Source: a virus | Direction: 5' to 3' (one strand) | Length of the DNA stretch: 40,481 nt | IMG/VR virus record: IMGVR_UViG_3300050035_000335 | Location: 1 to 40,481 of that record | Part shown: positions 7,855 to 17,783 of the stretch, piece after piece | Numbering within the stretch: the first letter of the stretch is position 1 | Layout: each line of letters opens with the position of its first letter | Notes under the pieces: generated by a model | The model's input: the letters and a program-made list of their open reading frames with translations, nothing else | What the model was told of the DNA's origin: nothing | Databases searched by the model: none | Translations under genes and position numbers: made by a program

Positions 7855-9654
7855 ATGGGCAGTTTTAGAATATTTAATTTTCAGGATAATCAAGAGGAAG
7901 TTGTGCCGGTACCGGGTTGGGCGTTAAAACTCGGAAAAAAGCTCGGTAAACTCTTCGACCCGAATATCGGCCTGCAGCCTGTCAATAACCTAGGCTCTGA
8001 TAAAACATTAACGGATATGCTAGGGACGAGTGATACCAACTCGATGACTTCAATCCCGACGCAGTGGAAGGTTTTCCAGGATAGGAAATCTGTTTACCTA
8101 GATATAGAGGCCATGGATGGCCAGGATGAAGTGGTTGCCACGGCATTAGACATTACGGCGAGTAATGCTACCGATTTTCTTGATGATGAGCCCTCGCGCC
8201 TGCAGTTTCGTTCCAAAGACGCACGTGTAAGTAAGATACTTAATGATCTTAGAACACGATTGGAACTTGATGATAGTGTAACCTGGCAGCTCGCCCGAGA
8301 TATGGCTATGCACGGGTCTATTTTTCGGGAAGTGGTTATTGACGCAAAATTGATGAAGATTGTTGATTTCAAGCAAACACTCCCTTTCCAGATTTACCCG
8401 AAAACCAATATGAAGGGGGACAAACAGCCTGGATGGCTCGTCAAAGTTGAGCAGGATATCTACAACGGGGGAGGACAGAGTTTAGATGAATGGCAGATTT
8501 GTCCATTCCTCTTTGGGTCTAAACGAGGTTATCTTACAACTCCTCCCTTAGCCGCCGCTCGCAGGGGATGGTATCGACTGAATAAGATGGAAGACGGCAT
8601 GGCCGTGGCAAGACTAGTTCGTGCTTATGATAAACTTGTTCATAAAATCCCCGTTCAGCAGCAGTGGGCTACTGACGATATTCTCAAAACTATTAAACGG
8701 TATAAAGACGCAATCACTAAGCGCAAGATGGAGAATAATGATGGATCGACAACGCAGCTTGATGCACCACTGGATGTCGCCACGGATTTTTACATGCCGG
8801 ATGATGGCACGAATCGGGGGGATGTCAAAGTTCTCACGAGTAACAATCAGCAGCTCGGAAATCTTAACGACCTTCTTTATAGTCGAGAAAAACTGCTGGT
8901 CAGGCTTAAAGTTCCTATTAGCTCCCTTCAGCTTACCAGTGCACAAAAGACGCACATATCGAAAGGTGGCGGGGGGGTTTCTGAAGCGCAGATAGAGTTT
9001 GCGAGGCATCTGAGAAACATTCAGGCCGTGATTCGTCGGGGATATTATCGCCTGGGCGATATGGAACTTCTACTAAACGGAATAATTCCTACGGTAGGAT
9101 TATACGAGGTAGTATTAAGAGATATAGACACAGCAGATCCCGCCAGTGATGCACAAATCCTTCTGACCTGCGCCCAGGCGGCTGTGTACTTTGTCGAAGC
9201 CTTCGGCGCTCTTCCGACTGAGCTGCTGGCCAGCAAATTCCTCTCCCTCACACCGGATCAGCAAATAATGATGGACAAATTCCTCACTGCCGATGGGGAC
9301 AAGATCACAGAGCTGCGTATGAAAGCTCTTGCGGAGGAAGCGGCTCCTGGGGCACGCCCTATACCCCCTGCAGCAGCCGGAGGTTCTACCGGAAAAGGGT
9401 CTGGCAACAGTAACAAGTCGAGGGCGGCTAGATCATCCGAGCAAAAAGGTGGATCGAAGGCAGCACAGCAGGGAGAAATACCGCTAGAAGATTTAGTTTC
9501 TGTCTTTGCTGCTTTACAGCAAAATATTAATAGCGATCTTACCAACGCCGGTGTGGAGTTTGTTCCAGATGTGGATGAAAGTTTTAAGAACCTCATTCGC
9601 CAGAACCTACGCGATATAGCAACGGTTGGGGAACTGGATATTACGGAAGATTAA
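7855..9654 (+). CDS. Portal protein (T4 gp20-like)
   Basis: Forms the dodecameric ring at the capsid vertex through which DNA is packaged and ejected. The 599-aa protein has T4-type portal features: W-K-V-F-Q-D-R-K-S-V-Y-L-D-I-E, D-E-V-V-A-T-A-L-D-I-T-A-S-N-A (residues about 88-102), a central segment ending NDLLYSREKLLVRLKVPISS, and the long wing and stem region. A Gly/Ser/Lys-rich linker (about 500-545, AAGGSTGKGSGNSNK) separates an acidic C-terminal tail. AGAGGAA precedes ATG 7855. The position between terminase and protease/capsid genes supports the call. Confidence 0.88.
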   Translation: MGSFRIFNFQDNQEEVVPVPGWALKLGKKLGKLFDPNIGLQPVNNLGSDKTLTDMLGTSDTNSMTSIPTQWKVFQDRKSVYLDIEAMDGQDEVVATALDITASNATDFLDDEPSRLQFRSKDARVSKILNDLRTRLELDDSVTWQLARDMAMHGSIFREVVIDAKLMKIVDFKQTLPFQIYPKTNMKGDKQPGWLVKVEQDIYNGGGQSLDEWQICPFLFGSKRGYLTTPPLAAARRGWYRLNKMEDGMAVARLVRAYDKLVHKIPVQQQWATDDILKTIKRYKDAITKRKMENNDGSTTQLDAPLDVATDFYMPDDGTNRGDVKVLTSNNQQLGNLNDLLYSREKLLVRLKVPISSLQLTSAQKTHISKGGGGVSEAQIEFARHLRNIQAVIRRGYYRLGDMELLLNGIIPTVGLYEVVLRDIDTADPASDAQILLTCAQAAVYFVEAFGALPTELLASKFLSLTPDQQIMMDKFLTADGDKITELRMKALAEEAAPGARPIPPAAAGGSTGKGSGNSNKSRAARSSEQKGGSKAAQQGEIPLEDLVSVFAALQQNINSDLTNAGVEFVPDVDESFKNLIRQNLRDIATVGELDITED

Positions 9655-9656
9655 AA

Positions 9657-10031
9657 ATGAAAAAGTTACAACGACAAATTGCTCTTCTTTACGCTACCTA
9701 CCTGGGTACGGTTCCCTTCTTTACGTTTTGTCTTATGCTTATATTAGTAGGGGTAGTTGCTGCGTGTCTTCCGAAATTTGCCTGGGTTGTGCTTGTTGTC
9801 TCTTTTATTTCGCAGACCGTTATTCAGCTTCTTAGTCTGCCCGCCTTGCAAATACTATCAGTGGAGGCAGAAGCACAGCGCCAGGAAGATCATGCAACAG
9901 TTATGTCTTCCCATGCACTGCAGGTAGAGAACAACGCCCGGGTAGAAACCCTTTTAGGGGGAGTGCATGCCCTTATTTCGGAACTGCATACTTTACACTT
10001 CCAAGATAGCATTTCTGATGACCACGAATAG
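9657..10031 (+). CDS. Two-helix membrane protein, DUF1003-like
   Basis: Probably an inner-membrane protein of 124 aa. Two hydrophobic segments lie at about residues 13-37 (YLGTVPFFTFCLMLILVGVV) and 42-64 (FAWVVLVVSFISQTVIQLLS). They are followed by a cytosolic helical tail in which A-Q-R-Q-E-D-H-A-T and VENNARVETLLGGVHALISEL recall the RxxxRD...N.kaEleI..L pattern of DUF1003 proteins. It starts 2 nt after the portal stop and so is co-translated. A holin or superinfection-exclusion role is possible, but nothing in the sequence decides it. The mobile RHH/HNH module inserts just downstream. Confidence 0.65.
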   Translation: MKKLQRQIALLYATYLGTVPFFTFCLMLILVGVVAACLPKFAWVVLVVSFISQTVIQLLSLPALQILSVEAEAQRQEDHATVMSSHALQVENNARVETLLGGVHALISELHTLHFQDSISDDHE

Positions 10032-10067
10032 TTCAACACATCCTTTGAAATGTCTCCACATGTATTT

Positions 10068-10174
10068 AGCCCGCCGCAAGCACCCCTGCTTTAGCGGGGC
10101 GTTAGGCGGGCTTGCCGAAGGTCCCCGAAACAAAGCCTTTAGGCCGAGCGAAGTGAGTTCGGCTTTCGTGAGAC
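10068..10174 (+). repeat. Left-end palindromes of the HNH element
   Basis: AGCCCGCC (10068-10075) pairs with 10105-10112. Inside it CCCC-T-GC, a TTTA loop and GC-GGGG (10083-10099) form the typical subterminal hairpin with an unpaired T. Further on lie GCCGA/TCGGC and a TTTCGT-GAG-ACGAAA hairpin. The stretch is highly structured and non-coding. Confidence 0.55.
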
Positions 10175-10182
10175 GAAAATAG

Positions 10183-10229
10183 GTGTTGACAAAAGTGTTG
10201 ATAACGTGTATTTACATTGTGTATACAAT
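10183..10229 (+). promoter_or_regulatory. Iterated GTGT repeats, candidate RHH operator
   Basis: GTGTTGACA (10183), GTGTTGATA (10195), GTGTATTTACA (10206) and GTGTATACA (10219) recur every 11-13 nt, about one helical turn, across the -35 and spacer of the promoter. ATTGT-GTAT-ACAAT (10216-10229) is palindromic. This suits binding by the ribbon-helix-helix protein encoded just downstream. Confidence 0.4.
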
Positions 10230-10239
10230 ATGCTATAAT
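10211..10239 (+). promoter_or_regulatory. Sigma70-type promoter of the RHH-HNH operon
   Basis: -35 TTTACA (10211-10216), a 17-nt spacer, and an extended -10 TGCTATAAT (10231-10239). The start codon follows only 5 nt after the -10, so the transcript is predicted to be leaderless or nearly so. Confidence 0.7.
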
Positions 10240-10244
10240 GGTAT

Positions 10245-10403
10245 ATGAAAAAACCTTCTAACTTTCGTCTCAGCGAAGAAGCATTGCGGATTTTGATTGT
10301 GATTTCCGAACACAAAGGTATAGGACGCACCGCTGTTCTTGAACTGATTATCCGAGAGTACGCCGCACAATCAAAACTTGATAAGGGTGAGGTTCAACAG
10401 TGA
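10245..10403 (+). CDS. Ribbon-helix-helix (CopG/Arc-type) regulator, 52 aa
   Basis: Too short for most gene callers, but well placed. It starts right behind a strong promoter and ends in a GTGA overlap with the HNH gene. The translation begins MKKPSNFRLSEEALRILI and continues ISEHKGIGRTAVLELIIREYAAQ. That is a beta strand (NFRLS) followed by two helices with the G-x-x-R-T-A-V-L-E-L-I-I-R-E-Y signature common to RHH proteins, which bind DNA as dimers. It most likely represses its own operon through the GTGT repeats that overlap the promoter, limiting expression of the nuclease. Autoregulation is an inference. Confidence 0.7.
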   Translation: MKKPSNFRLSEEALRILIVISEHKGIGRTAVLELIIREYAAQSKLDKGEVQQ

Positions 10404-11014
10404 AAAGCAACACCATATCGCGGCGGCAGTCGGAAGGGCTTTGCGTCCAGTGTGGCTCGGAACGCGGAAACTCGGCTACAAAAATAAGGTGTCGGCCTTG
10501 TGCTGATTTGCACAACGCAAAAGGACATCCGCACCGCAGTTCGGGATTTTGCTTCGATTGTCGTACCCCGCTGACGGATAGTGTGGGGCGGCGTTGTGTC
10601 GTGTGTGCAGAAAAAAGCAATCAAGCGACAAAAAACAGAGTTCAGAAATACAAGAAGGCTGGTCACTGTGTCCAGTGTGGGAACACAGAGGTTGTTACCA
10701 AAGGCGTATACCACCTTTGTACTACTTGCTACTTCCGTAAAACCGCTAAACAAAGATTGGGGTCAGCAACGCGCTGGAAAGAACTGGAAGACCTTTGGAT
10801 AAAACAGGATGGTATCTGTCCCTACACAGGCTCCAAACTAATACTCGGTGTTGACGCTTCGTTAGACCACATTCTGCCATCAAGCAGATTTCCTGAACAC
10901 AGACACGACATCAATAATGTTGAGTGGGTTCATTATCGTGTAAACGAAATGAAAAAAGACTGGACGAAAGAAGAATTCCTCCAATTCATGCGAGGTATTC
11001 TCGCAAATGTGTAG
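10400..11014 (+). CDS. Zinc-ribbon HNH endonuclease
   Basis: 204 aa with a GTG start overlapping the RHH stop. The N-terminal half holds three paired CxxC zinc ribbons (C15/C18-C31/C34, C51/C54-C66/C69, C90/C93-C107/C110). The C-terminal half is an HNH nuclease core: GICPYTG (C140), S-L-D-H-I-L-P-S-S (D156-H157), N-N-V-E-W-V-H-Y-R-V-N-E-M-K. It is expected to cut DNA and promote spread of the element. It is not an IscB or IshB: no PLMP domain, RuvC or bridge helix is visible. The position corresponds to that of tnpB in an IS605 element, directly upstream of a structured right end. Confidence 0.85.
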   Translation: MKSNTISRRQSEGLCVQCGSERGNSATKIRCRPCADLHNAKGHPHRSSGFCFDCRTPLTDSVGRRCVVCAEKSNQATKNRVQKYKKAGHCVQCGNTEVVTKGVYHLCTTCYFRKTAKQRLGSATRWKELEDLWIKQDGICPYTGSKLILGVDASLDHILPSSRFPEHRHDINNVEWVHYRVNEMKKDWTKEEFLQFMRGILANV

Positions 11015-11104
11015 AGATAGATAGAGCCGTTGGGCGTCAACGCAAGGCACTGGCCTAAGCGTAGCCCAAGAAGCCGTCGGGCTTTAGCCCGTGCGGAGTG
11101 TCAC
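11015..11104 (+). ncRNA. Structured 3' region of the HNH element, omega-RNA-like
   Basis: Between the HNH stop and TCAC, TTGGGC pairs with GCCCAA around an inner GGC/GCC region. Then come AAGAAGCC and the CGGGC-TTTA-GCCCG hairpin. The order GCGTAG, AAGAAGCC, CTTTAG hairpin, TGTCAC also occurs at the 3' end of the tnpB gene and its right end here, where omega RNA is made in TnpB systems. Expression and guide function are inference. Confidence 0.4.
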
Positions 11105-11210: not shown

Positions 11211-12410
11211 ATGGAAGTTAAACCCACACGGGGGCGAGTAGATACGCAAGTTGTGCAAAAAAATGATGCCGGAGCGGTTTATGGCGGCACCATTATTGAA
11301 GGAAATGTGACGGTGCGAGAGGCTCTGGAACTATCTGGTCTTAATTGGAGTGTTGGTCTGGAGCCTCTGCTCTCTCCAACACTTCCTTCCTATGATGAAG
11401 CTACTGCGGAAACGTCTCCTGTATTAGAAGCGGAGGTCTGCTTAAAGACCGGTAATCGGGAGGTCATTCCGGGATTAAAGGCGCGTTATATTAAATCGGC
11501 TGAGCGCACCTCTGCAGGTAAATTCCTCAATGTACCGGTTGGTCTCGTTGATGTGGTGCCAACGCAAGTTGTTCCTGGGTATTACGCCACTATGCGTCAG
11601 GATAATAGGGCTGTGCTAGGCGTTGTTAAGAGTCGTTATAACGTAATGCAAAACATTCAGGCGTTTGACTGGATTGATGCGATACTTGGGCAGGATGGCG
11701 CTTGTATTAGCTCAGCAGGCGCTCTTTACGGGGGGCGCATGACCTGGATATGTGTAGACCTCGGCGGCTTTGATGTACTCCCTGGGGATGAAATTAGGAA
11801 GCATATTCTCATAGTTAATAGTCATGATGGCACGAGCAATCTGGTTGTGCAAATGCTGCCTTTTAGACTTGTGTGCCAGAATATCTTAAACTTCCATGGA
11901 CTGAAATCGGGGTCGGAAGAACTGAAAGTACGACATAGTAAAGGGATGTTTAAAAAGTTGGAAGTGGCTAAGGATACATTTATCCAAGCCCACAGGAACT
12001 TTGATAACGTGGCCAAGATTTATCAGGAATTCTCCAACGTAATTGTTACTCCTCAGCAGCAAAAGGATATTATCTACAATGCACTAAGTGTTCCGGAGGG
12101 AGAGGTTCAGGCATTCTTTCAGTCCGGGCAGCGAGCGGAGGAGGAAGGTAATTACAAGAGTCCACAATGGGTCAATCAAGTCGTTGATATTGAGCGGGCA
12201 ATTGAGGCCGGACCTGGGAATGAATTTGGGAAGGGATCAATCTGGTCAATCTATAATGGACTGACTTATTACTATGATTACCTGCGGCACGTACGCGGGG
12301 AATCGAGTAAGCCAGACCTTGTGATCGAAAGCAAGATCAGTGGTTATTCGGCCAAAATGAAGGCTAAAAGTTTTATCTCCTGCTACAATGCTTTGCGTAT
12401 GGCTGCTTAA
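11211..12410 (+). CDS. DUF932 phage/plasmid-related protein (TIGR03299 type)
   Basis: 399 aa. The conserved order is W-S-V near residue 46, then D-N-R-A-V-L-G-V-V-K-S-R-Y-N-V-M-Q-N (about 131-148), G-A-L-Y-G-G-R-M-T-W, L-I-V-N-S-H-D-G-T-S, P-F-R-L-V-C-Q-N-I-L, then W-S-I-Y-N-G-L-T-Y-Y-Y-D. All are typical of DUF932 proteins common in phages and plasmids. The biochemical function of the family is not established; a role in DNA metabolism or DNA protection is suspected. GAGAGG lies upstream of the ATG. The gene stands alone between its own possible promoter and a strong terminator, so it is an independent unit within the head cluster. Confidence 0.85.
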   Translation: MEVKPTRGRVDTQVVQKNDAGAVYGGTIIEGNVTVREALELSGLNWSVGLEPLLSPTLPSYDEATAETSPVLEAEVCLKTGNREVIPGLKARYIKSAERTSAGKFLNVPVGLVDVVPTQVVPGYYATMRQDNRAVLGVVKSRYNVMQNIQAFDWIDAILGQDGACISSAGALYGGRMTWICVDLGGFDVLPGDEIRKHILIVNSHDGTSNLVVQMLPFRLVCQNILNFHGLKSGSEELKVRHSKGMFKKLEVAKDTFIQAHRNFDNVAKIYQEFSNVIVTPQQQKDIIYNALSVPEGEVQAFFQSGQRAEEEGNYKSPQWVNQVVDIERAIEAGPGNEFGKGSIWSIYNGLTYYYDYLRHVRGESSKPDLVIESKISGYSAKMKAKSFISCYNALRMAA

Positions 12411-12949: not shown

Positions 12950-15900
12950 ATGAAGAGTCAATTAGCTAAGCTGAGGCTACAAAACCTTACTCGTGAAACG
13001 TTGACAGCGCTGCTCAAGCAAGAAATTCAAGCACCGGAAACTGTTCTTCTGCAAGACCACTATAACATAGCGGGATCGTTTGAAGAACATGTATCGGATG
13101 TGCTAGGGGCATTTCGAGCCTGGAGACGGGAGGACGATAACGATGATTACTGCTATAGCTGTTTACTCAGCATATTACCAGGGACTATCGTTTTCTATAC
13201 CGATTACTACTATGAGACCGGTGGAACTAAGTATTACACCGTGAGCTACTCCGCAAGTGGTGGCCAGATTGTAGTAGGCAGCGACGTTCAACGAGTCGAT
13301 GTAGAGATGATAGTAACTGATCTAGGCATTGGCAGCGATGAAGATGGCTACAGCAGCCAAGAAAATACACAGAAAGAGAATTCTATGGCGCAGATTAAAC
13401 AAGCGAACGAGGGAAAAGAGGGCAATGACGTGGTGAAAGCTGCGGATAGTCTTACACCCCAGGTTGGCAATGCCGGGGTCCCAGACCTCACAGCGGGAAC
13501 TACCGAGGCCGATCAGACGCCCACGAGCATTCCTGACCAAGTTAATGCTGCTAAGGCAGCAACCCCGGTCGAATACTCAGGTACAGAGGGTGTGGGAACC
13601 GGCGATACTGCTTCGGCAACTACGGCTCCTAGTACTAAGGAAGGACTTGCCGATGAAGCCGCTGGACTTAAGAATACGGCTACCGGCGATGGTTATAGCG
13701 CAGTTAATGCTGCGTTTAATACGTATGCGGGAGGCGGCCATGCAGGCGGCGGAGCAGCAGGGAGCAGTGGTACGCAGAAGCAGGCGATGCCTCTTATTCA
13801 GTCTGTTTGCAATGATCTCGCTCAGCAATCACTGAGCTATGTAAAACTTCAGTCTGTAGAGACGGACGCCAGTGGTAAGAAGCTGATGCACATTCAAGGC
13901 ATTGCAACCCGCGCTGATATTGTCAACGGTATGGGAGAAGTTTATCCTCTCAGCGTTTGGGAAGCCAACCTCCCGACTATGAACGAGCAAGCTACGGCAG
14001 GCAAGTTCCTGGGCAAGGTGGAACATCCCGCGCAAGAACAAGGACTCGTAGACACAGCAATCAAGTTTGACAAGTTCTGGCTTCAGGGCTCGGATGTCTG
14101 GTTTGATGCAACGATTGTTCCGACCGAGCCTTATGGCAAAAACCTGCAGGCCATGCTTGAAGCAGGTGTTGCTATTGATTTGTCCAGTCGTGGATATGGC
14201 ACGATGAAACAGGCCGACTGGCGTGGAGTCAGTAGGAAAGTTATCCAAGATGACTTCAGTTGTGTAGCCTTCGATGCTGTATGGCACGGAGCTTCGACCG
14301 GGAGCGGGGTCACGACCGCCAAATATCAGTCAACGACAGGTACCACGGCTGAAGCCGACGGAACCGAGAAAGTAGAGATTACACAAGCTATGGAACTGAC
14401 CCAGGCACAGAAAGACGCTGCGGCCCTACGAGCTGTACGCGAAGTGAACGATTATCGCTCGGATCTGCTGAAGCAGTCTGCGGGTGAACTCAGTGAACTT
14501 GGCAACAAGACACTAAAGAACGCGCTGGAGCAGTGCAAGGATATTGAAAGCCTGCACACAACATACCAGGCATTTTTGCCTACTATAAAGCAGAGCTTTC
14601 CGAAGCCTTCGGCTGAGGCCCTCACGCAGAGCAACACCTATGCTCCTCAGTTTTATGTCACTAAGAGCGAAGCTGAGCATGCCCCTAAGACCGTTGGCGA
14701 ACTGTTTGACCGCATGGTACAGGATCTTCCTACCACGTTCCCAGGCGGCGACCCTGGCAATTCCCCAATCGGATCTAAGTTCAGCAATCCTCGCTTAATT
14801 TGCAAGCAGATGCTCGTGAATACTGCGAATGAAGCGCACGGCGCTTTTAACGGCCGTGCAGCGGCTCGGGGCCTTCTCGCGCTTGAGCAGGGCAATGTCG
14901 AGCGTGCGGGGGATATCTTGACCCAGGCGCTTGAAAATGGTTCGACCATTGCGAACGGCAACGCTGTTAATGATGGCGCTCCGCTTTCTGCTCCTCTGAT
15001 CTTTCCGCTAATCCGCCGAGTTTTTCCACAGTACATCATGAATGAGATTGCCTCAATCCAGCCGATGGACCGACCACAGGGTAAAATCTTCTACCTAGAT
15101 GCGTATCGCACCGGTGCCTCCGATGGTGATACCGGTTCTACCTCCGATCCTCTTGGTACGGGTACTGCTGGTGAGCAGAGAATTGACCTCAATACTTCTG
15201 CGAATCCTTTTAATACCTCGTATGCGAACAACTCGACGGAAGGGTCTGCCGCTCAGATTATCCGTTTGCGTCTCAACAACATCACGGTCAATGCTTATAC
15301 CAAGAAACTCGGCGCGGACTGGTCAATTGAGGAAATGCAGGATCTCCGGGCGTATCACGGCCTTGATGCCGCGCAGGAATTGATGGGTGCAGTTGCCAGG
15401 GAAATGGCCCTTGAGTGGAATGGTTCTGTTCTCAACGATATGCTGGCTCAGGCGACGGCGAGCTCGGCCACATTCGGTACTGTTGCTCCGGCAACGGGTT
15501 TCCCAAATCAAAAGGACTGGGATGAATATATCTGGACCTATATCTCAAACCTGGACAACCAGATTTTCGCACAGAGAAATGGCCCTTTAACACACATCGT
15601 GGCCGGTGTAGATGCCGCTCTTGCTCTTGGCAAGTCGTTTAGGCTTACGGCTCCTATCAATGGCAAGGACTCTGAGCTCAATGAACTGTATCCTGGTACT
15701 ACTTTCTTTGGAACTGTGACTTCCCCAAGCGGCGGACGTTACAAGATTTTCCGAACAAACTTCTGGGGTACGGGAACTGCGAATGGTTCTCAGATACTCG
15801 GCATTCGCAAGGGTGCTGATTGGTCTGATACCGCTTACGTCTGGGCGCCCTACACCGATTATGTTACGCCGCAACTTACCGACCCGGCGGACTTCTCGCA

Positions 15901-16000
15901 GAAACAGGGAATTCTCTCCCGCGCTGCGCAGCAAGTGGTTGTTTCGAACGCTATGGGAACAATTACGGTTGCTAAGGGCACTACTGGCGTCATATTGTAA
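12950..16000 (+). CDS. Prohead protease-major capsid protein fusion (T4 gp21/gp23-like)
   Basis: A single 1016-aa polyprotein. Residues 1-145 are an unknown Tyr-rich domain. About 146-290 is a Gly/Ala/Thr-rich linker beginning at an internal ATG (13385). About 300-440 resembles T4 gp21-type prohead protease: V-E-H-P-A (His359) and I-D-L-S-S-R-G-Y-G (Ser412/413), the expected His/Ser pair. About 450-600 is helical, scaffold- or delta-like. About 600-1016 is a gp23-like capsid: L-I-F-P-L-I-R-R-V-F-P-Q, A-S-I-Q-P-M-D-R-P-Q-G, W-S-I-E-E-M-Q-D-L-R-A. E516 in G-E-L-S-E fits the (I/L)xE cleavage rule. It probably self-processes on assembly. Confidence 0.88.
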   Translation: MKSQLAKLRLQNLTRETLTALLKQEIQAPETVLLQDHYNIAGSFEEHVSDVLGAFRAWRREDDNDDYCYSCLLSILPGTIVFYTDYYYETGGTKYYTVSYSASGGQIVVGSDVQRVDVEMIVTDLGIGSDEDGYSSQENTQKENSMAQIKQANEGKEGNDVVKAADSLTPQVGNAGVPDLTAGTTEADQTPTSIPDQVNAAKAATPVEYSGTEGVGTGDTASATTAPSTKEGLADEAAGLKNTATGDGYSAVNAAFNTYAGGGHAGGGAAGSSGTQKQAMPLIQSVCNDLAQQSLSYVKLQSVETDASGKKLMHIQGIATRADIVNGMGEVYPLSVWEANLPTMNEQATAGKFLGKVEHPAQEQGLVDTAIKFDKFWLQGSDVWFDATIVPTEPYGKNLQAMLEAGVAIDLSSRGYGTMKQADWRGVSRKVIQDDFSCVAFDAVWHGASTGSGVTTAKYQSTTGTTAEADGTEKVEITQAMELTQAQKDAAALRAVREVNDYRSDLLKQSAGELSELGNKTLKNALEQCKDIESLHTTYQAFLPTIKQSFPKPSAEALTQSNTYAPQFYVTKSEAEHAPKTVGELFDRMVQDLPTTFPGGDPGNSPIGSKFSNPRLICKQMLVNTANEAHGAFNGRAAARGLLALEQGNVERAGDILTQALENGSTIANGNAVNDGAPLSAPLIFPLIRRVFPQYIMNEIASIQPMDRPQGKIFYLDAYRTGASDGDTGSTSDPLGTGTAGEQRIDLNTSANPFNTSYANNSTEGSAAQIIRLRLNNITVNAYTKKLGADWSIEEMQDLRAYHGLDAAQELMGAVAREMALEWNGSVLNDMLAQATASSATFGTVAPATGFPNQKDWDEYIWTYISNLDNQIFAQRNGPLTHIVAGVDAALALGKSFRLTAPINGKDSELNELYPGTTFFGTVTSPSGGRYKIFRTNFWGTGTANGSQILGIRKGADWSDTAYVWAPYTDYVTPQLTDPADFSQKQGILSRAAQQVVVSNAMGTITVAKGTTGVIL

Positions 16001-16062: not shown

Positions 16063-16230
16063 GTGACAATTCCCCAGCCCTAAAGGGCGGGGCTTCTTAG
16101 CAGTCTACGCTGCTACTCTGTATTGCCCTACAGAGAGAATGTTGATGGCGGCGTTGGTGTCTCTGTCAAGAGACAAACCGCACTGTTGGCAATTATGTTG
16201 CCGTTCGGAAAGGGACTTCTTGGCAATGTG
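16063..16230 (-). ncRNA. Predicted omega (reRNA) at the tnpB 3' end and right end
   Basis: Family knowledge: TnpB uses an RNA from the 3' end of its own gene through the right end, with the guide lying just outside the element. Here the minus strand shows an AGCAG/CTGCT hairpin over the tnpB stop, then AAGAAGCC and the CCCC-stem hairpin ending at TCAC. The predicted guide begins with CTGTTTTTAGTAAG from the phage flank. Confidence 0.5.
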
Positions 16231-17202
16231 TCCGCACCCGCTACAGGTCTGGCTGGTGTAGGCGGGATTGATTTCGGCGTACACCCTAGCGGCTCTTGCA
16301 GCCTTCTGGGAGAGTACGTTCCGAAACATTGACCAAGAAGCATCGGAAATAGACTTTGCGAGGCAGTGGTTCTTGACCATGCCTTTGACGTTGAGCTTTT
16401 CAACGGCGATCACGCCGAAGCGGTTGACGATTTTACGGGCGGTCTGGTGAACAAAGTCATGCCGCCGATTGCGAACCCGCTCATGGATACGGGAGACGAC
16501 CTTTTTGGCCTTGCGTCGTTTTCGGGAGCCGCGAACCTGCTTCGCCAACTTACGCTGCGCTTTTGCCAGTGCCTTTTCTTCTTTGCGGAAGAAGCGAGGG
16601 TTTTCAATGTTCTCGCCATTGGACAAAGACGCGAAGGTTTTCAGGCCAACGTCAATGCCAACCTGTTCCTCGGACGGCGGCAACAATTCGGGGCCGACTT
16701 CGCAGGAAAAGCAGGCATACCACTTATGACGGATGCGGCGAATGGTACACGTTTTGATTGTACCGTCAATGGGACGGTGAAGCCGAATGGCAACATCACC
16801 GATTTTTGACAAGCGAAGTTTTCCCTGATGGAACCCGAAGCCGCTTTGTGGGTAGGTGAACGAGTCGTACCCGTCGCCTTTGACGCGGGGAAAGCCTGGT
16901 GTCTCTCCTGCTTTCACGCGGCGAAAGAAAGCGTCAAAGGCAAGGTCAACACGGACGGCGACGTTCTGCAAAACTTGGCTGAACACATCGGAAAGTTCAG
17001 GGTGTTCCTTCTTCCACTTCGGGAACGCGGCCTGCTGCTTTACTTTAGACGGCGACTTGCCCAGCACTTCGTAGTCGTGCTTGCGCCAGTTCAGAAGGCT
17101 ATTGTAGACCTGTCTACAGGTTTCAAGCGTCCCCGTCATGGCCGTCTCCTGCGCCTTCGTCGGGCACAGGCGATACACGTAGGCAAGTCTGTGGTTAGAC
17201 AT
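16105..17202 (-). CDS. tnpB: TnpB, RNA-guided RuvC nuclease of IS200/IS605
   Basis: 365 aa, the usual length. It cuts DNA next to a target-adjacent motif under guidance of omega RNA, helping the IS persist after excision. The RuvC residues are intact: D184 in V-G-I-D-V-G-L-K-T-F, E268 in A-V-E-K-L-N-V-K-G-M, D348 in D-R-D-T-N-A-A-I-N-I. The zinc ribbon is C320-x2-C323 and C338-x2-C341. The basic helix K-R-R-K-A-K-K lies at about 228-234, and the N-terminal REC/WED part is intact. It overlaps tnpA by 8 nt. Since the catalytic residues are all present, it is not a dead TldR-type regulator. Confidence 0.95.
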   Translation of the reverse strand: MSNHRLAYVYRLCPTKAQETAMTGTLETCRQVYNSLLNWRKHDYEVLGKSPSKVKQQAAFPKWKKEHPELSDVFSQVLQNVAVRVDLAFDAFFRRVKAGETPGFPRVKGDGYDSFTYPQSGFGFHQGKLRLSKIGDVAIRLHRPIDGTIKTCTIRRIRHKWYACFSCEVGPELLPPSEEQVGIDVGLKTFASLSNGENIENPRFFRKEEKALAKAQRKLAKQVRGSRKRRKAKKVVSRIHERVRNRRHDFVHQTARKIVNRFGVIAVEKLNVKGMVKNHCLAKSISDASWSMFRNVLSQKAARAARVYAEINPAYTSQTCSGCGHIAKKSLSERQHNCQQCGLSLDRDTNAAINILSVGQYRVAA

Positions 17203-17593
17203 TCTTTTGGTTCTCGATGTATTGCTTGACTACGGAAAGCGGTGCGCCTCCGACCGTGATACAGCAATATGAGTTTGTCCAAAGTGACGGCAGGCGGGAC
17301 GTTAGAACTGGGAACTCCTGCCGCAGATACCGAGAAGAACGGCCCTTGACCAGTTTGACGAACTTGTGAACTCCAAACTGCGGGTCTACTTCGCAAAGCA
17401 GATGAACGTGGTCAGGCATGACCTCAAGTTCGATGACCTCGCACTTGGTTTCGTCGGCGACCCCGTGAATAATGGACTTGAGCCGTTCGCCGATGTCGGC
17501 GGTCAACACCTTCCTGCGGTACTTCGGGCAAAAGATAACATGGTACTTGCAAGAATAGGCGACATTGTTGTTTGAGCGCAGTTCCGTAACCAT
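17195..17593 (-). CDS. tnpA: TnpA, Y1 (HUH) transposase of IS200/IS605
   Basis: 132 aa from ATG 17593; a longer frame to 17632 exists but the family begins near MVTELRSNNNVAYSCKYHVIF. It cuts and rejoins single-stranded DNA at the element ends, leaving no duplication. The HUH motif is P-D-H62-V-H64-L-L, and the catalytic tyrosine is Y125 in VVKQY followed by IENQ. All key residues are present, so it should be active. It might also mobilise in trans the HNH element at 10.06-11.10 kb, whose right end is very similar. The minus-strand leader contains the left-end palindromes (17642-17709). Confidence 0.95.
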   Translation of the reverse strand: MVTELRSNNNVAYSCKYHVIFCPKYRRKVLTADIGERLKSIIHGVADETKCEVIELEVMPDHVHLLCEVDPQFGVHKFVKLVKGRSSRYLRQEFPVLTSRLPSLWTNSYCCITVGGAPLSVVKQYIENQKNV

Positions 17594-17688
17594 GCAATTA
17601 GTATACCACAAGAGGCTATCTAATGTCAACACATCTAAAAACGCAAGGCATCAATATCATGCCTTCGGAAAGGCATGGAGCCTTATAT

Positions 17689-17709
17689 CCCCATCAATAA
17701 ATTGAGGGG
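17689..17709 (-). repeat. Left-end subterminal hairpin of the IS605-type element
   Basis: CCCC (17689-17692), unpaired A, TCAA, TAAA loop, TTGA, GGGG (17706-17709) as read on the + strand. It mirrors the right-end hairpin at 16072-16092, which differs only in the inner 4 bp. Confidence 0.8.
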
Positions 17710-17783
17710 CCTTACGGCTCCTTCGGTAAGATAAATACACAGTTCCCGATCTGTCGTACAATCTATTTTTGATTGTCAGACGA

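Follow-up and report, generated by a model that had tools for sequence, protein, structure and literature searches.

The segment between positions 10060 and 11104 of the window (the whole 40,481-nucleotide viral record IMGVR_UViG_3300050035_000335 of IMG/VR) is best explained, with a probability of about 0.68, as a homing-type HNH gene carried together with its repressor by a non-autonomous IS605-type shell that derives from a tnpB element. According to this explanation, an operon for a ribbon-helix-helix (RHH) repressor and an HNH nuclease would now occupy the former place of tnpB, the HNH protein would be a selfish homing nuclease whose gene is copied into HNH-less DNA when the cuts made there by the protein are repaired, the RHH protein would hold nuclease levels low via the promoter palindrome, and TnpA acting in trans would move, or would formerly have moved, the IS605-type ends. 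Such an arrangement could have arisen in two ways: the cassette inserted at the 3' end of tnpB, whose body was then lost, or tnpB was lost from a gene order like that of the viral contig G598, in which RHH and HNH genes precede it. The elements compared below suggest that mergers of two kinds of selfish DNA have happened repeatedly.

Judged from the genes of the window, the source record is a virus, a T4-like phage, and the RHH and HNH ORFs sit between a gene at 9657-10031 and a DUF932 gene at 11211-12410 (Table 1). The N-terminal half of the terminase resembles the helicase family phrog_30356, and the prohead protease and Gp23-like major capsid protein form a single ORF of 1016 aa. Scans of viral and genome contigs with single proteins (HNH, DUF932 and TerL) gave no phage relatives, so neither an HNH-less allele nor an empty site for this locus was found in them.

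Table 1. Features of the window, with the evidence on which each assignment is based.
Feature	Position	Strand	Evidence or remark
Terminase large subunit, 950 aa	4937-7789		window
Portal	7855-9654		window
CCAC at the position of the relatives' left target/cleavage motif TGAC	10056-10059	+	comparison of left ends
Whole non-autonomous IS200/IS605-type element	10060-11104	+	both ends compared with L012/L133, L013, L142 and L010
Left-end cruciform GCCCGCC..(TTTA loop)..GGCGGGC	10069-10111	+	L013 match, common fold
Promoter-like TTTACA-17-TATAAT, extended TG	10211-10239	+	consensus scan, 11/12 positions
Palindrome ATTGT-GTAT-ACAAT between promoter hexamers, candidate RHH operator	10216-10229	+	one palindrome, putative function
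RHH protein, 52 aa, probable operon repressor	10245-10403	+	CopG-family match, AlphaFold2
Predicted HNH nuclease, 204 aa, three zinc-ribbon CxxC pairs	10400-11014	+	PF13395, phrog_1035
In-frame TnpB C-terminus relic SRWASTQGTGLSVAQEAVGL*	11025-11087	+	translation beside L012/L013 TnpB; tblastn E=0.002
Stem 1 and inner stem of omegaRNA-like right-end structure	11030-11069	+	covarying across 9 sequences
Right-end hairpin, TTTA loop	11074-11096	+	covarying helix 3
GTCAC right terminus	11100-11104	+	identical terminus in L010, L012, L013, L142 and neighbour IS
Prohead protease and Gp23-like major capsid protein	12950-16000		one ORF
Autonomous IS200/IS605 neighbour (tnpA 17195-17632, tnpB 16105-17202)	16063-17725	-	PF01797 E=6e-44, PF01385 E=4e-30; NF033573, NF040570

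The ends of the segment identify it as IS200/IS605-type, as the preliminary description had proposed, since both recur around tnpB in one viral locus (L013) and around tnpA plus tnpB in another (L012/L133). Subterminal hairpins common to tnpA/tnpB elements are present at both ends, each with the TTTA loop previously claimed, and the relatives place the limits almost exactly at the coordinates first given, the left limit at 10060 being set from position alone. The left hairpin is 90% identical across 31 bp to that of L013, whose right end matches too, and the left end of the window element folds like those of L012, L013, L142, L139 and the neighbouring IS at 16063-17725, with an outer stem, a GYAAG internal loop, an inner stem and, in most, a TTTA loop. 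In six related left ends (L012, L013, L142, L139, L140 and L010) TGAC stands 8-12 nt ahead of the left hairpin, an arrangement expected by chance in about 3% of left ends; the window lacks this family target motif at its left edge and has CCAC instead. An earlier candidate for the left target, GTATTTA, was dropped in favour of the TGAC comparison as its occurrence was not above chance.

At the right end, a pattern scan of viral contigs yielded L010 in addition to L013. The right 80 bp of L010 are 84% identical to the window (E=2e-18) and finish at the same GTCAC, and this match, together with that of L013 at both ends, indicates that chance does not explain the likeness between the window and its relatives. 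When the right 89 bases were shuffled, 199 of 200 versions folded less well than the native sequence. The common structure of 18 pairs is 90.6% paired over nine sequences, and both partners have changed in nine of its pairs. Its covariation score was not reached in any of 500 shuffles, a control that does not amount to a probability as the sequences are related.

Several loci hold only parts of such ends. In L014 (7157-7246) an inverted IS605-type left hairpin adjoins a right hairpin, forming an end-only palindromic remnant, and L140, a related tail-gene locus, has a left hairpin around 905 on the reverse strand. A right-end-like hairpin, AAGAAGCCGCCTGCTTTAGCTGGCGGAGTAGTCA with small variations, lies near phage genes without tnpB in the viral contigs L026, L034, L044 and L060, and a hairpin of this kind is found in the same setting in L030, L061 and L062.

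Close to its right end, the element retains an in-frame relic of the last ~20 codons of TnpB, SRWASTQGTGLSVAQEAVGL*, which corresponds to SRWASTSAAAGVAQEAAGL* in L012 and SAWGVTWPVTASVPQEAAGL* in L013. Because this relic precedes the right end, the window element can be traced by sequence to a tnpB-bearing element that lost the tnpB body. The preliminary statement that tnpA and tnpB are both lacking therefore holds for the absence of a tnpA ORF and the loss of the tnpB body but not for the C-terminal relic; no N-terminal TnpB relic was found in the element. The cassette junction at ~11025 removes the left arm of stem 0, which is kept in the other right ends folded, including those of tnpB elements and the end-only L010, and is truncated in the window. 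Stem 1, the inner stem and the right hairpin remain fully paired.

No ORF for a Y1 (HUH) TnpA lies in 10060-11104, so the segment is at most a non-autonomous IS200/IS605 derivative, and it is placed in the family only as such because both tnpA and the target motif are absent. A full-length tnpA does lie 6 kb away in the neighbouring IS, and the parallel with that IS drawn in the preliminary description proved sound at both ends: in the two elements alike, the left end has an outer stem, a GYAAG internal loop and a stem with a TTTA loop, and the right end reads AAGAAGCC-hairpin-GTCAC. The neighbour is thus a possible source of TnpA in trans. The closest-ended autonomous relative, on the other hand, has a TnpA just ~40% identical to that of the neighbour, and the CCAC of the window matches neither TGAC nor the TTAC of the neighbour. 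Given that the window copy has no TnpA of its own, does not show the usual TGAC at its left edge and has lost one omegaRNA stem, it probably moves poorly now, and it may be immobile.

Within these ends, the ORFs, motifs and family scores bear out the cargo originally described, an RHH protein with a zinc-ribbon HNH protein containing three CxxC pairs. The 52-aa protein is 46% identical to an annotated CopG-family RHH protein, and its AlphaFold2 model (pLDDT 81) has helices at 11-23 and 28-46, the two helices of an RHH fold; its top fold matches, which are non-significant, are an RHH antitoxin and CopG. The two ORFs overlap by 4 bp. In G598 a counterpart of the promoter palindrome, GTTGTA-GAAT-TACAAC, lies at the -10 element. 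Sequence match and model agree on the fold, and the RHH protein is a probable repressor of the operon, with the one window palindrome as its putative operator. The closest RHH relative (the 46% match) is encoded at L080 3001-3141 on a Sulfuricystis plasmid, beside conjugation genes; it was set aside, since the different downstream gene that it overlaps is not an HNH gene.

The 204-aa protein contains six CxxC motifs and an intact HNH core (CPYTG, DHI, N, N), and its family scores are weak yet consistent (PF13395, E=0.014; phrog_1035, E=1e-8). An AlphaFold2 model was unusable (pLDDT 51). Profile searches gave no RRXRR, RuvC or OrfB_IS605 match, in agreement with the earlier view that the protein is neither TnpB nor IscB. 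Its nearest relatives are free-standing phage genes, and members of the phrog_1035 family are either free-standing in phages or located between gene pieces annotated as DNA polymerase (in a Listeria phage) or RNA polymerase (in a Vibrio phage). The HNH core, the zinc-ribbon part and kinship to phage HNH genes, which characterize homing HNH proteins, are thus all present in the sequence, and by analogy the window gene presumably behaves as a homing nuclease gene. LR745208 and LR756511 carry the HNH gene without IS605-type ends. The preliminary description had named such homologues as evidence against the element; they do occur, and the element stands because the HNH gene is its cargo. What these close homologues do count against is adaptation of the HNH protein to IS605 elements.

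Since a structured RNA with covarying pairs is retained at the right end, on the same strand as the operon, it could be imagined that this omegaRNA-like end serves as a guide RNA for the HNH protein. This idea is highly improbable: stem 0 is lost exactly at the cassette junction and retained in the other right ends folded, the protein has no RuvC or RRXRR match, its homologues occur without such an RNA, and no match to the HEARO RNA (RF02033) or another guide-RNA family was found. It was set aside because of the loss of stem 0.

Predicted HNH genes recur in or beside tnpB in at least three other IS605-type elements. In G598, a virus contig with the same ends as the window element, the order is left end, RHH, HNH1, TnpB N-terminus, HNH2, TnpB C-terminus and right end. 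The RHH-like protein has 58 aa (PSK_trans_fac, E=0.013, below cut-off), HNH1 (PF01844, E=2.5e-8) overlaps its gene, and HNH2 (phrog_1035, E=8e-27) replaces most of tnpB, of which the first 45 codons are kept. These ends thus enclose a small RHH-like gene with an HNH gene after it in two cases, the window and G598, which differ in HNH type. The right junction of HNH2 differs from those of the window and the cyanobacteria, and none of the HNH1 relatives in Thermus, Nostoc and Halomarina plasmids and in L144 was seen in an IS605-type element. G598 is the one HNH case among viral loci with the right-end pattern and was found later; the script scan of the 68 such loci missed it, its right end lying at the edge of locus L071. 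In the flank before the left end (L142), the G598 element lies inside an apparent further HNH-like gene (..CLSCGRKEPEIKLT), so that three HNH-like genes are clustered at this locus.

Three HNH-bearing cyanobacterial genomes (G001, G208 and G254) came from searches that covered 386 cyanobacterial genomes and 293 of the Microcystis order; an alignment-based HNH scan of genomes yielded Microcystis only. G254 was discarded as a further case, as its truncated HNH gene of the same family (L082 1500-1620) follows a long gene and has no IS605-type ends. One and the same Microcystis tnpB element occupies two unrelated sites, on plasmid NZ_CP025929.1 (L002) and in strain LEGE 91341 (L007), and carries an HNH gene antisense at the tnpB 3' end within a 461-bp insert that is absent from all eight sister copies examined in detail. 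On its right side the insert is bordered by GTACGGCAGGGCGTGTCGG in place of the native GTACGGTAGGGCATACCGG, a diverged tnpB duplicate of the kind that co-conversion would leave. In G208 an antisense HNH gene stands in for most of tnpB, between 35 N-terminal codons and the C-terminus of TnpB. Its right junction coincides with that in the Microcystis tnpB (STVGH, 8-9 codons past NAAxNIL), and these two cases may share one origin. The window junction, 4 codons past NAAINIL, falls within about 5 codons of the cyanobacterial position. This coincidence is only suggestive because tnpB deletions that spare the right end would often stop nearby; moreover, the orientation of the HNH gene relative to tnpB is sense in the window and antisense in Microcystis and G208, so the events are independent and the shared position could be due to chance. 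A FastTree tree of HNH domains, weak because the domain is short and divergent, groups the window HNH with LR745208 and LR756511 (0.93) and Microcystis with G208 (0.95), with the G598 HNHs elsewhere, a weak indication that the element-borne HNHs are not one clade.

These comparisons bear on two further explanations. The shell could be what is left of an IS605 element, lying immobile between two phage genes, into which a free-standing phage HNH gene moved by chance. Phage homing genes commonly sit in intergenic sites beside structural genes, and the missing TnpA and TnpB, truncated stem 0 and non-canonical left motif would all fit a dead element. Chance invasion is nevertheless unlikely, as the same ends flank an RHH-HNH pair in the unrelated G598, a tnpB element with an HNH gene is found at two different Microcystis sites, and stem 1, the inner stem and the hairpin of the right end of the window element are still fully paired.

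It is also possible that the HNH protein took over the retention role of TnpB, as the preliminary description proposed; this fits the repeated replacement of tnpB, although none of the evidence requires it. In its full form, the nuclease would cut the resealed empty site after single-strand TnpA excision so that the element is copied back, with the RHH protein timing its expression, and IS605-type elements would repeatedly have exchanged TnpB for an RHH-controlled HNH nuclease serving retention or spread, becoming tnpB-free homing transposons. HNH genes do occupy or replace tnpB in G598, G208 and the window, where the ends needed for transposition persist, the window operon is oriented like tnpB, towards the right end, and retention by TnpB is known to resemble the action of a homing endonuclease (PMC12477157; PMC11870625). 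Yet HNH homing enzymes have a fixed target and IS605 elements land at many sites, so that such an enzyme, unlike RNA-guided TnpB, could not restore the element at each new site. The diverse lineages of the element-borne HNHs, the nearest relatives of the window HNH outside such elements and the missing TGAC motif also argue against this proposal, which is considered doubtful.

The preferred reading, a homing-type HNH gene carried in a tnpB-derived shell, shows concretely how HNH nucleases and IS605-type elements could be brought together. IscB and Cas9 have been proposed to originate from an HNH domain inserting into a RuvC nuclease, and a merger such as that in the window would be an event of this kind. 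HNH genes that lie in or replace tnpB also make the exchange of an RNA-guided for a protein-guided homing nuclease testable, with the HNH-less and HNH-bearing Microcystis copies as a ready natural experiment.

The open-access literature searched contained no report of HNH genes replacing tnpB, and the window element combines features of several known systems. Like other members of the IS200/IS605 family (tnpA, tnpA plus tnpB, tnpB-only and MITE/PATE forms), it has subterminal hairpins with TTTA loops, a AAGAAGCC-hairpin-GTCA right terminus and a structured tnpB 3' end before the right hairpin, plus a TnpB relic; it differs in having no tnpA, RHH and HNH genes for the tnpB body, and CCAC for TGAC. 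With phage HNH homing endonucleases (phrog_1035, annotated as 'endonuclease VII' or HNH) it shares the zinc-ribbon N-terminal part and the CPYTG..LDHI..N..N core, but those genes are free-standing or adjoin split genes, whereas the window gene is paired with an RHH gene inside IS605-type ends. IscB, IsrB and IshB (HEARO/OMEGA) likewise link HNH to IS200/IS605-type elements; the window, however, has no RuvC/RRXRR or HEARO RNA match, and its structured RNA comes from tnpB and follows the gene on the 3' side, in contrast to the HEARO RNA, which is 5' of its gene. The closest parallel is provided by IStrons, in which a group I intron has been fused to an insertion sequence, with several independent origins (PMC4227781); there too a second selfish element has joined an IS, the partner in the window being an HNH nuclease gene instead of a self-splicing intron.
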